From Pseudomonas sp. J452 (lineage in GTDB: Bacteria; Pseudomonadota; Gammaproteobacteria; Pseudomonadales; Pseudomonadaceae): a DNA stretch of 64,000 nt. The notes under the pieces were generated by a model. That model was not told the origin of the DNA and did no database searches. It saw only the letters and a list, made by a program, of their open reading frames with translations. The stretch is taken from the NCBI RefSeq assembly GCF_024666525.1, contig NZ_CP088294.1, forward strand, positions 2,604,001 to 2,668,000, written 5' to 3'. The position numbers and the translations under genes were made by a program. Numbering within the stretch: position 1 is the stretch's first letter; every line of letters starts with the position of its first letter. Shown here piece after piece: positions 14,726-62,865 of this stretch.

Positions 14726-15208
14726 ATGAGTGCCTTTCACGACCTCAATCTGCGTGCGCTGGATGGCCAGGATCTGCCCCTCGCGCCCTATAAAGGCCAA
14801 CTGGTACTGGTGGTCAATGTCGCCTCCAAGTGTGGCCTGACCCCGCAGTACGCCGCCCTGGAAACCCTCTACCAGCAGTACCGTGAGCGCGGTTTCACCG
14901 TGCTGGGCCTGCCGTGCAACCAGTTCGCCGGCCAGGAGCCGGGCACTGAAGAGGAAATTCGCGAGTTCTGCAGCCTCAACTATGGGGTGACCTTTCCATT
15001 GGGCAGCAAGCTGGACGTCAACGGCCCCGGCCGTCATCCGTTGTACCGCCTGCTGGCGGGCGAGGGTGCCGAGTTCCCCGGCGACATCACCTGGAATTTC
15101 GAGAAGTTCCTGGTCGGCCGCGATGGCCGCGTGCTGGCGCGTTTCTCCCCGCGCACCACACCGGATGATCCGGCGCTGATGCAGGCCATCGAGAAAGCGC
15201 TCGGTTGA
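14726..15208 (+). CDS. Glutathione peroxidase family protein (BtuE-like)
   Basis: The 160-residue product starts at MSAFHDLNL, with AAGGAG just upstream of the ATG. The peroxidatic cysteine is C36 in NVASKCGLTPQY, where animal enzymes carry selenocysteine. The conserved Gln and Trp are in LPCNQFAGQEPG and ITWNFEKFLV. The family reduces hydrogen peroxide and organic hydroperoxides, and bacterial members often use thioredoxin rather than glutathione. It corresponds in place to PAO1 PA0838. Confidence 0.93.
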   Translation: MSAFHDLNLRALDGQDLPLAPYKGQLVLVVNVASKCGLTPQYAALETLYQQYRERGFTVLGLPCNQFAGQEPGTEEEIREFCSLNYGVTFPLGSKLDVNGPGRHPLYRLLAGEGAEFPGDITWNFEKFLVGRDGRVLARFSPRTTPDDPALMQAIEKALG

Positions 15209-55043: not shown

Positions 55044-56579
55044 CTAAAGCGCTTTAGCGCTGGCCGGCTGGAGTGACTGTGAGTTACTCAGATAACTCTT
55101 CAGCTTGGCCTGCTGGCTCGGAGTCATGAACAGGCCGAGTTTGGTCCGCCGCCAGAGAATGTCCTCGGCCTCCAGTGCCCACTCCTCGCGGCGCAGGTAG
55201 TCCACTTCGCGGGCATACAGGCCGGCGCCGAAGTGTTCACCCAGTTCGCTCTGCTGCTTGAGGCCGTCGACGATGCGCCAGCTGCGGCTGCCATAGGTGC
55301 TGGCCCAGCGCTGCGCCAACTGCTGGTCGAGCCAGCCGAAGCGGGCTTGCAGCTGTTCCACCAGGGCTTCGCGGCTGTCCATGTTCTCGCCGCCGGGCAA
55401 TGGCGCCTTGGCTGTCCAGGCCGGGCACAGGCGTGGGAAGTAGGGCGCCAGCTGGCTCATGGCGGATTCGGCCAGCTTGCGATAGGTGGTCAGCTTGCCG
55501 CCGAACACCGACAGCAGCGGTGCCTCGCCCGGTGCGCCGGATAGCGACAGGGTGTAGTCGCGGGTCACGGCCGAAGGCTGGTCGGACTCGTCGTCGCACA
55601 GCGGGCGCACGCCGGAGAAGCTGTGCAGGATGTCGCTGCGCTGCAGCTGCTGCTTGAAGTGCGCGTTGACCACCTTGAGCAGGTAGTTGGTCTCTTCCTC
55701 GCTGATCTTCACCTTGGCCGGGTCGCCCTGGTATTCGCGGTCGGTGGTGCCGATCAGGCTGAAGCGCTCCAGCCAGGGAATCACGAAGACGATGCGCTGG
55801 TCCTCGTTCTGCAGGATGTAGGCCTGCTCGCCATCGTGGATGCGCGGCACAACGATGTGGCTGCCCTGGATCAGGCGGATGCCGTAGGGCGAGGGTTGCT
55901 TGAGGTCGTCCTTGATGAAGCGCGCCACCCAGGGCCCGGCGGCATTCACCAGCACGCGGGCGCGGATGGAGAACAGGCTGCCGTCGTTGCGCTCCAGGTG
56001 CAGGTGCCACAGGCCCTTGCTGCGCCGCGCGCTGACGCAGCGGGTGCGGGTATGGATGTGCGCGTGGTGTTCGCGCGCGGCCATGGCGTTGAGCACCACC
56101 AGGCGGGCGTCGTCGACCCAGCAATCGGAATATTCGAAGCCGCGCGCCATCTCTGCCTTGAGCGGGCTGCCGGCGCCGAAGCGCACGCCATTGGAGCCCG
56201 GCAGTTTCTCGCGCTTGCCCAGGTGATCGTAGAGGAACAGGCCGGCGCGGATCATCCAGGCCGGGCGCAGGTGCGGGCGGTGCGGGAGGATGAAGCGCAT
56301 CGGTTTGACGATGTGCGGCGCCTTGGCCAGCAGCACTTCGCGTTCGGCCAGGGCCTCGCGCACCAGGCGGAATTCGTAATGTTCGAGGTAGCGCAGACCG
56401 CCGTGGATCAGTTTGCTGCTGGCCGAGGAGGTGTGGCTGGCCAGGTCGTCGCGTTCGCAGAGGAACACCGAGAGGCCGCGCCCGGCCGCGTCGGCGGCGA
56501 TGCCGGTGCCATTGATGCCGCCGCCGACCACGGCCAGGTCGTAGATTTCGGCGAGGGGGTGGGTCTGGCTGTTGGGCAT
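55044..56579 (-). CDS. glpD: Aerobic glycerol-3-phosphate dehydrogenase
   Basis: The 511-residue FAD enzyme oxidises glycerol-3-phosphate to dihydroxyacetone phosphate and feeds electrons to quinone at the inner membrane. The FAD motif is DLAVVGGGINGTGIAADAAGRG, followed by SSKLIHGGLRYLEHYEFRLV (in part) and, later, FGGKLTTYRKLAE. The promoter region contains GlpR-type operators at 56605-56636. It lies downstream of glpR on the same strand, with a 156 bp gap. Confidence 0.97.
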   Translation of the reverse strand: MPNSQTHPLAEIYDLAVVGGGINGTGIAADAAGRGLSVFLCERDDLASHTSSASSKLIHGGLRYLEHYEFRLVREALAEREVLLAKAPHIVKPMRFILPHRPHLRPAWMIRAGLFLYDHLGKREKLPGSNGVRFGAGSPLKAEMARGFEYSDCWVDDARLVVLNAMAAREHHAHIHTRTRCVSARRSKGLWHLHLERNDGSLFSIRARVLVNAAGPWVARFIKDDLKQPSPYGIRLIQGSHIVVPRIHDGEQAYILQNEDQRIVFVIPWLERFSLIGTTDREYQGDPAKVKISEEETNYLLKVVNAHFKQQLQRSDILHSFSGVRPLCDDESDQPSAVTRDYTLSLSGAPGEAPLLSVFGGKLTTYRKLAESAMSQLAPYFPRLCPAWTAKAPLPGGENMDSREALVEQLQARFGWLDQQLAQRWASTYGSRSWRIVDGLKQQSELGEHFGAGLYAREVDYLRREEWALEAEDILWRRTKLGLFMTPSQQAKLKSYLSNSQSLQPASAKAL

Positions 56580-56604: not shown

Positions 56605-56636
56605 GTGAACAATTAAATGTTCGTTTCCGAAAATAT
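56605..56636 (-). promoter_or_regulatory. GlpR operators before glpD
   Basis: GAACAATTAAATGTTC and, overlapping it, AATGTTCGTTTCCGAAAAT are inverted repeats of the TGTTCG/CGAACA type bound by GlpR. They are about 25-55 bp upstream of the glpD ATG. Confidence 0.7.
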
Positions 56637-56735: not shown

Positions 56736-57493
56736 TCAGGCGATGTGCAGCTGGATCTTCTGCTCGTGCAGCAGGCGGGCGATGGTGGCGGGGGGCGGAG
56801 CGTCGGTGAACACCTGATCGACCAGGTTCAGCGAGCCCAGGCGCACCACGGCGTTGCGCCCGAACTTGCTGGAGTCGGCAGCCAGCAGAACCTGGCGGGC
56901 GTTGTCGATGATCGCCTGGGAAACCCGCACTTCCTGGTAGTCGAAGTCGAGCAGGCTGCCGTCCTCGTCGATGCCGCTGATGCCGACCAGGGCGAAGTCG
57001 ACCTTGAACTGCTGGATGAAATCCACCGCCGCCTGGCCGACCACGCCGCCATCGGCGCGCACCGTGCCGCCGGCCACCAGCACTTCGAAGTCGGCCTTGC
57101 TGCTGAGCTGGGCGGCGACGTGCAGGTTGTTAGTGATCACCTTGAGGTGCTTGTGGCCGAGCAGGGCGCGGGCGATGGCCTCGGTGGTGGTGCCGATATT
57201 GATAAACAGTGAAGCGTGATCGGGAATCTGTGCGGCGATGGCTTCGGCGATGCGCTGCTTCTCGTCGCGCATCTGCCCGGCACGCATGGCGTAGGCGGTG
57301 TTCTGGATGCTCGATGCCTCGCTCGCTGCGCCGCCGTGGGTGCGCCGCAGCAAGCCCTGTTCGGCCAGCTGGTTGATATCACGGCGAATGGTCTGCGGGG
57401 TGACGACGAAGGCCTGGGCCAGTTCGTCGATACTCACGTAGCCACGTTCGCGGGCGCGATCCAATATGCTTTGCTGGCGGGGGGGAGGCTCAT
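56736..57493 (-). pseudogene. glpR: glycerol-3-phosphate regulon repressor, apparent frameshift after the start
   Basis: The body is a complete DeoR-family GlpR: helix-turn-helix [20 protein letters not shown], then effector blocks [24 protein letters not shown] and [13 protein letters not shown]. The natural start, MSLPP, is at the ATG 57491-57493, seven bases after AAAGGA. From there the frame would continue as SKAYW and miss the gene, because a C7 tract (57479-57485 on the complement) puts it one base out. With C8 it would read [20 protein letters not shown], the expected N-terminus. Without it the only in-frame start is a TTG at 57464 with no ribosome site. This may be a real mutation, a phase-variable tract or a base-calling error. 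Confidence 0.85.
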
Positions 57494-57581
57494 GGGCGAT
57501 CCTTTCTGGGCGACGGCGCAGTATAACGGGGAGCTGCCAGTCGACAGTTTTTTCGGCTATGGTACGCGCAAATCGTCATTC

Positions 57582-57600
57582 TATTTTCACATTCGAACAT
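57582..57600 (+). promoter_or_regulatory. GlpR operator at the ybaK start
   Basis: TATTTTCACATTCGAACAT is an imperfect inverted repeat of the GlpR type. Its right arm includes the first two bases of the ybaK ATG, so no room is left for a Shine-Dalgarno site. Confidence 0.6.
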
Positions 57601-58069
57601 GACTCCAGCCATCGATCTGCTGAAAAAGGCCAAGGCCGAGCACCAGGTACACAGTTACAGCCACGACCCCAAGGCGCCGTCCTACGGCCTGGAGGCGGCG
57701 GAAAAGCTCGGCCTCGATCCGGCCCGGGTGTTCAAGACCCTGCTTGCCGCCAGCGAGAAGGGCGAGCTGCTGGTGGCGGTGGTGCCGGTGGCCGGCAGTC
57801 TCGACCTCAAGGCCCTGGCCCACGCCGCCGGGGTGAAGAAGGCCGACATGGCCGACCCGCAGGCCGCGCAGCGCGCCACCGGTTACCTGCTCGGCGGCAT
57901 CAGCCCGCTGGGGCAGAAGAAGCGCCTGCGCACCTTTATCGACGAGTCGGCCAGGCTGCACGCGACCATCTATGTCAGCGCCGGGCGGCGTGGACTGGAG
58001 GTGGAGCTGGGGGCAGAGTTGCTGGCCCTGCATACCCAGGGGCAGTTTGCCGCCATCGGGCGGGAGTGA
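57599..58069 (+). CDS. ybaK: Cys-tRNA(Pro)/aminoacyl-tRNA deacylase YbaK
   Basis: The 156-residue protein starts MTPAIDLLKKAKAEHQVHSY and keeps YbaK residues in FKTLLAASEKGELLVAVVPV, where the catalytic-pocket lysine lies, and in TGYLLGGISPLGQKKRLRTFID. It removes cysteine wrongly attached to tRNA-Pro. Its start overlaps a GlpR-type operator, and glpK follows on the same strand after a REP block, so it appears to be drawn into the glycerol regulon by position rather than by function. Confidence 0.93.
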   Translation: MTPAIDLLKKAKAEHQVHSYSHDPKAPSYGLEAAEKLGLDPARVFKTLLAASEKGELLVAVVPVAGSLDLKALAHAAGVKKADMADPQAAQRATGYLLGGISPLGQKKRLRTFIDESARLHATIYVSAGRRGLEVELGAELLALHTQGQFAAIGRE

Positions 58070-58211: not shown

Positions 58212-59699
58212 ATGTCCCATTACCTGCTGGCCATCGACCAGGGCACCACCAGCTCCCGTGCCATCGTTTTCAGTGCCCAGGGCCTGCCGCTGGCGCGTGC
58301 TCAGCAGGAGTTCAAGCAGTATTTCCCCAAGGATGGTTGGGTCGAGCACGATGCCGAGGAAATCTGGCTGACCACCCTCAAGGTCTGCCGCGAGGCGCTG
58401 GCCCAGGAAGGCCTGAAGGCCGAGGACATCCGCGCCATCGGCATCACCAACCAGCGCGAGACCACCATCGTCTGGGATGCGCTGAGCGGCGTGCCGATCC
58501 ACCCGGCCATCGTCTGGCAGGACCGGCGCACCGCCGATTACTGCGCCGGGCTCAAGGCCGCCGGGCATGAGGCGCAGGTGGCGGCCAAGACCGGTCTGCT
58601 GATCGACCCGTATTTCTCCGCGACCAAGCTGCGCTGGATTCTCGATAACGTGCCGGGCGCCCGTGAGCGCGCCGAGCGCGGCGAGCTGCGTTTCGGCACG
58701 GTGGACTGCTTCCTGCTGTGGCGCCTGTCCGGCGGTAAGTCGCACAAGACCGACGCCAGCAACGCCTCGCGCACCCTGCTGTTCAATATCCACAGCCAGC
58801 AGTGGGACGAGGAGCTGCTGCAGCTGTTCGGCATCCCGCGCAGCCTGTTGCCGGAGGTGCTCGATTGCGCCGCCGATTTCGGCACTTGCGAGGCCGAGCT
58901 GCTCGGTGCGCCGATTCCGGTGTTGGGCATGGCCGGCGACCAGCAGGCCGCGCTGATCGGCCAGGCCTGCTTCCAGCCGGGCATGGTCAAAAGCACCTAC
59001 GGCACCGGCTGCTTCATGATCCAGAACACCGGCAGCACGCCGGTGGTGTCGAAGAATCGCCTGCTGACCACTGTCGGCTATCGCCTCAATGGCAAGGTTA
59101 CCTATGCCGTGGAAGGCAGCATCTTCGTCGCTGGCGCCGCTGTGCAGTGGCTGCGTGATGGCATCAAGCTGATCAGCGATGCGCGCGACAGCGAGGCGAT
59201 GGCCGAGCAGACCGGCGATGCCTGCGGCGTGTACCTGGTGCCGGCGTTCACCGGCCTCGGTGCGCCTTACTGGGACCCGAAAGCGCGCGGGGCGATCTTC
59301 GGCCTGACCCGCGACACCGGGATCAAGGAGATCGTTACCGCCGGCCTGCAGTCGGTGTGCTACCAGACCCGCGACCTGCTCGAAGCGATGCGCCAGGACG
59401 GCGCCGCCGAACCCAGTGCATTGCGCGTGGACGGTGGCATGGTGGTCAACAACTGGGTCATGCAGTTCCTCGCCGACATCCTCGGCGTGCCGGTGGAGCG
59501 CCCGGAAGTCACTGAAACCACGGCCCTTGGCGTGGCCTACCTGGCCGGCTTGCAGGCTGGGCTGTACCGCGACCTCGACGAGGTCGCCAGCCACTGGCAT
59601 CGCCAGCGCCGCTTCGAACCACGGATGGCCGACGAGCACCGCGGCAGGCTGTATCACGGCTGGCTGGATGCGGTGAAAAGGGTGCGCAGCGAAGGTTGA
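58212..59699 (+). CDS. glpK: Glycerol kinase
   Basis: The 495-residue FGGY-family kinase phosphorylates glycerol to glycerol-3-phosphate. N-terminal [14 protein letters not shown] binds [13 protein letters not shown] and [18 protein letters not shown] contact glycerol and the dimer interface. The ATP-site signature [11 protein letters not shown] and the C-terminal [27 protein letters not shown] (in part) are intact. No glpF facilitator gene precedes it, unlike PAO1. A REP unit fills the gap after ybaK. Confidence 0.97.
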
Positions 59700-61421: not shown

Positions 61422-62651
61422 TCAGTAGGTGTATTGCAGTTGCAGCCAGGCCTTGTCGGTGTCGACGGCGAAGTCGTCGGCATCGTAGCTGGCGTATTTG
61501 ACCAGGCCGACCAGACCCTTCACGCCCGGAATCGGGTGGGCGTAGGACAGGTTGATCTCCTCGCCATACTGGCTGCTGCCTTCCTCGGCGCGGAAGTCGT
61601 GGTACCAGGCCTGCAGGCTGCCGCCCAGCAGCGGTACGGTGGCGCCGACATAGGCATCCTTGACGCCCTCGGCCGGGGTGACGAGGAACTGGTCAGCCCA
61701 GCCCTGGAAGGCATGCTTGGTCGCCAGTGGGGTCTGGAAGGCGCGGTTGCCCGGGCCTTCATCGCCGCCCAGCACTTCGTAGCCGGCTTTCAGGGCCACG
61801 CCCTTGATGGTGTAACCCAGTTCGGCCAGGTAGTAGTCGCTGTCCAGTTCCAGCGGGTTGTCGGCGTAATCCTTCTGCTGGGCGTATTCCACGGCGTAGC
61901 TGACGCCCTGGATGGCGCCGTTCAGGCGCAGGCCGGTGGTCTGGCTGGACTGGGTATTGCCCAACAGGTTGTCGAGGCCGAGCAGGTAGCTGTAGGCGGT
62001 GACGGTCAGTTCCGGCATGGCCACGTACTGGGCGTTGATCAGGTGGCTGTGGCCTTCGATGTTGGCCGGGTTGCCGGCGGTGTCGTACTGGCCGTTGCCC
62101 GGGCCGAAGATGGTGTTGATGTTGTCGATATAGGCGTAGGTCAGGGTCAGCCCGTCGAGGGGCTTGAGCTGGGCCAGGGCGCCGTCGTAGGTCTGCTCGT
62201 TCTGGCGCCAGGCCACGCCGCCGACGTAGCGCTGGTTGTCCAGGTTGATGCGCTGGCGGCCGAGCACGGCAGCGCCGTACTGGTGGTCGTAGCGCAGCAG
62301 GGCCTGGTTGACTTCGCTGCCGTCCGGATCGGCAACCACCGAGTATTCGCTCTGGCCGTTACGGGTTTCGTTGTAGGCGGCATCGCCGATGCGGCTGACG
62401 TTGTCGGCTTCGATCAGCGCCGACAGGCCGTACCACTTGCCGCTCTGGAAGCCGACACGGGTGCGCAGGGTCTGGGCATTGGCGTGCTTGAGGGCGTTGT
62501 CCTGGTCGACGTGCTCATAGCGATAGCGCGCGTCGAGGATCGGCTTGCCCTCGGTGAACAGATTGCTGAAGGCCTCTTCGGCAACGGCGGCGTGACTGAA
62601 GGTGGTGCCGGCAATGGCCAGCGACAGCAGGGACAGTTTCATCATGCGCAT
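61422..62651 (-). CDS. Outer-membrane porin, alginate-export-like beta-barrel
   Basis: The 409-residue product starts at MRMMKLSLLSLAIAGTTFSHA, eight bases after AGGAA; the signal peptide ends near AVAEE. The rest alternates beta-hairpins with aromatic girdles, including LDARYRYEHVDQDN, LLRYDHQYGAAVLGRQRINLDNQRYVGG (in part) and a C-terminal KAWLQLQYTY that ends in an aromatic residue as outer-membrane barrels do. The GRQRINLDNQRYVGGVAWRQ wording is typical of the alginate_exp-type porins (PF13372). Its cargo is unknown. It may share a transcript with the PilJ-N gene 75 bp downstream. Confidence 0.85.
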   Translation of the reverse strand: MRMMKLSLLSLAIAGTTFSHAAVAEEAFSNLFTEGKPILDARYRYEHVDQDNALKHANAQTLRTRVGFQSGKWYGLSALIEADNVSRIGDAAYNETRNGQSEYSVVADPDGSEVNQALLRYDHQYGAAVLGRQRINLDNQRYVGGVAWRQNEQTYDGALAQLKPLDGLTLTYAYIDNINTIFGPGNGQYDTAGNPANIEGHSHLINAQYVAMPELTVTAYSYLLGLDNLLGNTQSSQTTGLRLNGAIQGVSYAVEYAQQKDYADNPLELDSDYYLAELGYTIKGVALKAGYEVLGGDEGPGNRAFQTPLATKHAFQGWADQFLVTPAEGVKDAYVGATVPLLGGSLQAWYHDFRAEEGSSQYGEEINLSYAHPIPGVKGLVGLVKYASYDADDFAVDTDKAWLQLQYTY

Positions 62652-62865
62652 AGCGGTCTTCCTGTAAGCCAAAAAACACAAAAAAAAACGCCACAGCGCC
62701 CACTGCTCCAGAAAGGGAGGGGTGCTATGACGTCGTTGTCGGTTGAGTGGCAGACACGCCGTTGTGCTGACCGGGGTGGGTCATAGCAGGCGGCGTGCCA
62801 GGATTTGTAAGTGTATGATTTATTAAGATTTAATGAATTTTTAAGAACTTTTTGCGATTTATACA

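Follow-up and report, generated by a model that had tools for sequence, protein, structure and literature searches.

A one-base frame break beside the start codon of glpR in Pseudomonas sp. J452

The window, that is, the whole 64 kb stretch of Pseudomonas sp. J452 DNA analyzed here, carries glpR on the minus strand among genes of glycerol metabolism. On the same strand lies glpD, encoding glycerol-3-phosphate dehydrogenase (55044-56579), while a gene for a ybaK-type Cys-tRNA(Pro) deacylase (57599-58069, plus strand) is divergent from glpR and is found together with glpK, encoding glycerol kinase (58212-59699, plus strand). The order glpK-ybaK divergent from glpR-glpD, with ybaK between glpR and glpK, is the usual arrangement in this group and was found at 66 of 80 related loci; glpK is co-directional with glpR-glpD at 8 of the 80. 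Elsewhere in the window, the minus strand of 61422-62681 holds an open frame of 419 amino acids that is listed from a TTG and has no NCBIfam match at 0.001. By eye it is porin-like, its likelier start is a downstream ATG, and a relative differs by one base upstream.

The body of GlpR is encoded at 56736-57464 (242 amino acids), counted from a TTG at 57462-57464 that corresponds to GlpR residue 11 and to the start coordinate, 57464, given in the original prediction. An ATG at 57491-57493 occupies the start-codon position of orthologous glpR genes, and a ribosome-site-like AAAGGA, which is also found in the five best-matching relatives, is located six bases 5' of it (57500-57505). The frame of this ATG and that of the GlpR body differ, and between them lies a run of seven C at 57479-57485 (G7 on the plus strand). 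The closest relatives have one base more at this place, in the form of C3-T-C4 or C3-G/A-C4. Inspection of the sequence confirmed that the ATG, the AAAGGA and the C7 tract are all present as first described, and also that the ATG is out of register with the body: the reading from it (57434-57493) ends after 19 codons at a TGA (57434-57436). A GTG at 57435-57437, which is GlpR residue 20, shares bases with this TGA (GTGA) and is a candidate re-initiation point. The TTG is not preceded by an AGGA-like site, and the 37 open codons 5' of it in the body frame contain no ATG, GTG or TTG, although CTG, ATA and ATC do occur there. C7/G7 tracts are rare in this DNA, since the one described here is the only one in the window and dinucleotide shuffles contain 16.1 on average.

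A scan of a one-genome-per-species collection identified 570 related stretches, the best 80 of which were kept. An in-frame ATG was found at the equivalent position in all 80 kept loci, and all 29 non-window loci of a set of 30 were likewise in frame; these two sets and the further starts examined overlap. In the five best matches among the kept loci (P. guryensis SR9, Pseudomonas sp. R-28-1W-6, 8AS, N040 and P. alcaligenes NBRC 14159) the sequence reads CTC CCT CCC CGC; the window has one base fewer at this place, so that its C7 equals their C3 and C4 runs joined. At the next-best loci the fourth codon is mostly CCG or CCA. The last letter of this codon is variable, because the genome G194, whose protein is 96% identical to P. 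guryensis GlpR, has CCG where the top matches have CCT. It is never missing in the other starts seen, and the window alone is without it. When the P. guryensis protein was compared with 398 genomes, 394 matched at 1e-60 and four did not; among the matches listed, only the genome of the window aligns from residue 4, the others aligning from residue 1. An in-frame C7, with the leucine codon CTG, was found at seven loci. Since such C runs come from ordinary Leu-Pro-Pro-Arg coding, a C7 as such is no sign of a switch.

The original prediction had proposed aligning the glpR starts of relatives for tract length and variation. Those seen proved to be in frame throughout, with an interrupted tract in the best matches and C7 at the seven loci. 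The C tract that it had emphasized is thus present in the window, but close relatives carry another letter inside it rather than an unbroken run of C. It had also considered that the arrangement would be normal if relatives all had C7 and an active TTG start; this is not the case, as the TTG is present at only 2 of the 80 loci. A normal start at the TTG was accordingly rejected, the in-frame ATG lying upstream at 80 of 80. With the orthologues intact and the window copy broken in frame, glpR has the form of a frameshift pseudogene. The central claim that the gene is broken therefore stands: its start is out of frame, its body is otherwise intact and conserved, and the kept loci are in frame without exception. 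As far as the sequence goes, the frame break relative to the orthologues is real.

In the mechanism that we propose, one base would have been lost at the fourth codon of glpR, fusing the C3 and C4 runs into C7 and leaving the start codon in a different frame from the remainder of glpR. If events are counted, a direct loss of the T would be the simplest route. A run of eight, however, slips at a rate that exceeds the loss of one given single base by orders of magnitude; judged by rates, a silent substitution that first made the run continuous, with slippage as the second step, would be at least as likely. From the sequence the two routes are indistinguishable.

The consequences for the protein were assessed from domain matches and a predicted structure. 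The DeoRC sensor domain (PF00455) is complete in the GlpR of the window, with 173.6 bits against a cut-off of 31.8. Read from the TTG, HTH_DeoR is matched over model positions 10-54 of 57 with 65.2 bits (Pfam cut-off 21 bits), compared with positions 1-54 in two relatives and 74.4 bits in a relative. The window does not contain a complete DeoR-type HTH read from an in-frame start codon, the ATG being out of frame. A form starting at the TTG would be missing residues 1-10, of which only five (6-10) fall in the HTH domain. The match to PRK10906 (NCBIfam) reaches 319.2 bits against a cut-off of 331, and three intact relatives also remain below this value, with 327.2, 325.2 and 320.8 bits, so that this cut-off does not discriminate. 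A sequence-based structure search found only the sensor-domain chain 7l6l, which is without the HTH. In the predicted structure of a relative's GlpR (the best of five models, with a mean pLDDT of 85; 65 to 76 for the other models), the first DNA-binding helix, helix 1, comprises residues 5-17. A start at the TTG (residue 11) would therefore be expected to cut off 6 of the 13 residues of helix 1, and a start at the GTG (residue 20) to drop the whole helix. Little or no full-length GlpR would be made, and internal starts, either at the TTG or at the GTG after the TGA, would at best provide a protein in which helix 1 is damaged or missing. Most likely, GlpR would no longer repress, or would do so only with strongly reduced activity.

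Two operator-like palindromes were scored against what we take to be the consensus of the GlpR operator. The one before glpD (TATTTTCGGAAACGAACATT, minus strand, 56616-56635) agrees at 17 of 20 positions; when the mononucleotides of the window were shuffled 20 times, the highest score was 15, and four relatives have 16-17 of 20. The second, at the start of ybaK (57582-57601), is weak: its 14 of 20 lies within the range of the shuffles, and it recurs at 13-14 of 20 in four relatives. The original prediction held that loss of GlpR would derepress glpD and glpK. For glpD this is reasonable, because an operator-like palindrome precedes the gene. For glpK the proposal is more tentative, as the palindrome on the ybaK-glpK side is conserved but scores no better than chance. 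We infer from these sites that both units would be derepressed, more firmly for glpD than for ybaK-glpK. Under the proposed mechanism, glpD and probably ybaK-glpK would thus be expressed in a way that permits glycerol use without induction.

Past the break, the 242 codons of glpR contain 10 synonymous and 0 non-synonymous private changes, where a private change is one in which the window differs from five relatives that agree, a criterion that favours conserved codons. Measured against four relatives, the private changes are 10 synonymous and 0 non-synonymous in glpD and 21 synonymous and 0 non-synonymous in glpK, and ybaK has none. Compared with P. guryensis alone, glpR differs synonymously at 36 codons and non-synonymously at 3. 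These patterns suggest that glpR was under constraint until very recently, with no relaxed selection visible in them. The counts of 10 and 0 fit a fresh loss (possibly in culture), a base-call error, or continued production of the protein. We regard a real, ordinary and recent one-base loss that cripples GlpR as the best reading, with a probability of roughly 60%.

A second reading, which we consider unlikely, is that the isolate has an intact glpR and that one base was dropped from the record in a C-rich stretch during assembly or base calling. The C-rich site, the fully constrained body and the fact that no other relative seen is broken (neither in the overlapping sets of 80 and 29 loci nor among the matches listed) would all be expected in this case. 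On the other hand, the site of the closest relatives is interrupted by a T and should be less prone to error than a plain run. The homopolymers of the assembly also speak against an error. About 122 kb were aligned to one relative, G118, and runs of at least 5 were compared wherever their flanks matched; no aligned C/G run exceeded 6 bases. The length was the same in 85 of 89 runs, and the genome of the window was longer by one in the other 4. A general shortening of homopolymers was hence not seen in this alignment, with its C/G runs of up to 6. The genome of the window moreover has 21 C/G runs of at least 8 bases, up to 29, all kept. The two longest are G runs of 29 (4759225-4759253 of the assembly) and 18 bases (15098-15115), which may be genuine hypervariable tracts or else artefacts of the assembly; the remaining 19 have 11 bases at most.

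Frame integrity was examined in three further ways. In a crude GC3 test, a mid-gene frame switch was seen at 0 of 72 C7 tracts (73 are listed in the genome, and 72 entered the test) and at 0 of 21 longer tracts; this test has low power, as 57 of the 72 and 20 of the 21 tracts lie in no clear frame and breaks near starts are invisible to it. A filtered comparison with G118 (122,135 aligned columns, mean identity 91.4%) yielded 36 isolated indels whose length is not a multiple of three. Of these, 21 fall strictly within a frame that was mechanically predicted in one or the other genome. Seven of the 36 touch a C/G run of at least 4 bases, and three of these seven are inside a predicted frame: the one in glpR, one at 2666723 that is six bases into a predicted frame of the relative and lies 5' of what, by eye, seems to be the real start of that gene, and a third at 2728159 within long mechanical frames. 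Single-base frame differences from the relative are also found outside homopolymers, at 2717913 and 2714222, within or near predicted genes. When the 94 genes of the relative were compared one by one, 87 were full length in one frame and one was split over two frames; in the reverse direction, 81 of 99 were full length in one frame and four were split. This comparison is blind to breaks near starts, because glpR is not among its listed exceptions. The possibility of a base-calling error, which had been raised from the start, thus gains no support from the assembly tests, although these are weak for the glpR site. Taken together, the indirect tests make a sequence error less likely but leave some chance of one.

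It is also conceivable, if improbable, that active GlpR is still made despite the shifted frame, by a start at the TTG, by re-initiation at the GTGA, or because ribosomes or RNA polymerase slip by -1 at the C run. Such a product would account for the conserved body with its lack of private non-synonymous changes. Most of the HTH domain is retained in the TTG form, which scores far above the cut-off, the in-frame GTG overlaps the TGA, and two CCC codons lie ahead of the frame change. Against this, an AGGA-like site is absent before the TTG, and helix 1 would be cut or lost from a product of either internal start. Use of the TTG would in any case be no conserved device, because this codon is present in so few of the kept loci and all of them have an ordinary in-frame ATG.

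The original prediction further suggested that glpR might be switched by slipped-strand changes in the tract. In this reading the tract length would flip among the cells of a population, and the activity of GlpR with it. A mononucleotide C tract directly behind the start codon is typical of such switches, and an uninterrupted tract slips much faster than ordinary indel mutation occurs. However, seven C make a short tract for switching at a high rate, and the homopolymer is not kept in relatives in both on and off frames: none of the relatives seen has an out-of-frame tract, the five best matches are interrupted, and the seven loci with C7 are in frame, apparently as plain Leu-Pro-Pro-Arg coding. 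The idea of phase variation is therefore unsupported and, although a C7 can slip, we give it little credence. A newborn contingency switch, in which the fused C runs would form a slippable tract and glycerol metabolism would flip between repressed and constitutive in this lineage, appears more doubtful still.

Should the recent one-base loss be real, the glycerol genes of this isolate are probably expressed even when uninduced. Experiments on its growth and physiology would be affected by this, and an annotation that starts the gene at the TTG would miss the break in glpR. Such a loss would fit an easy loss of the GlpR repressor in culture. The finding itself is modest and ordinary, and it invokes no new kind of mechanism.

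The poly-C tracts of Neisseria and Bordetella are homopolymeric phase-variation switches. Like them, the window has a C run that adjoins the start codon and is out of frame; unlike them, its tract is short and not common to the relatives seen. In P. guryensis SR9, the GlpR of the DeoR family has a body that is 98% identical and the gene order is the same, but there, as in other relatives, the start is in frame. A parallel in kind is E. coli K-12 MG1655, in which a one-base length change affects the same regulator. There, glpR (b3423) is a 758-base annotated pseudogene in NC_000913.3, and it is intact with 759 bases in the MG1655 record NZ_CP010444.1; in E. coli strain 1A, glpR is identical to the 758-base form and annotated as frameshifted. 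A glpR match was found in 5375 of 5426 E. coli genomes. With the 758- and 759-base records, one-base losses of this repressor are on record. The E. coli genes were compared by length and annotation; the Pseudomonas break lies next to the start codon, within a run of C. If it is real, E. coli K-12 would be joined by a Pseudomonas in which glpR was likewise lost through a change of a single base.
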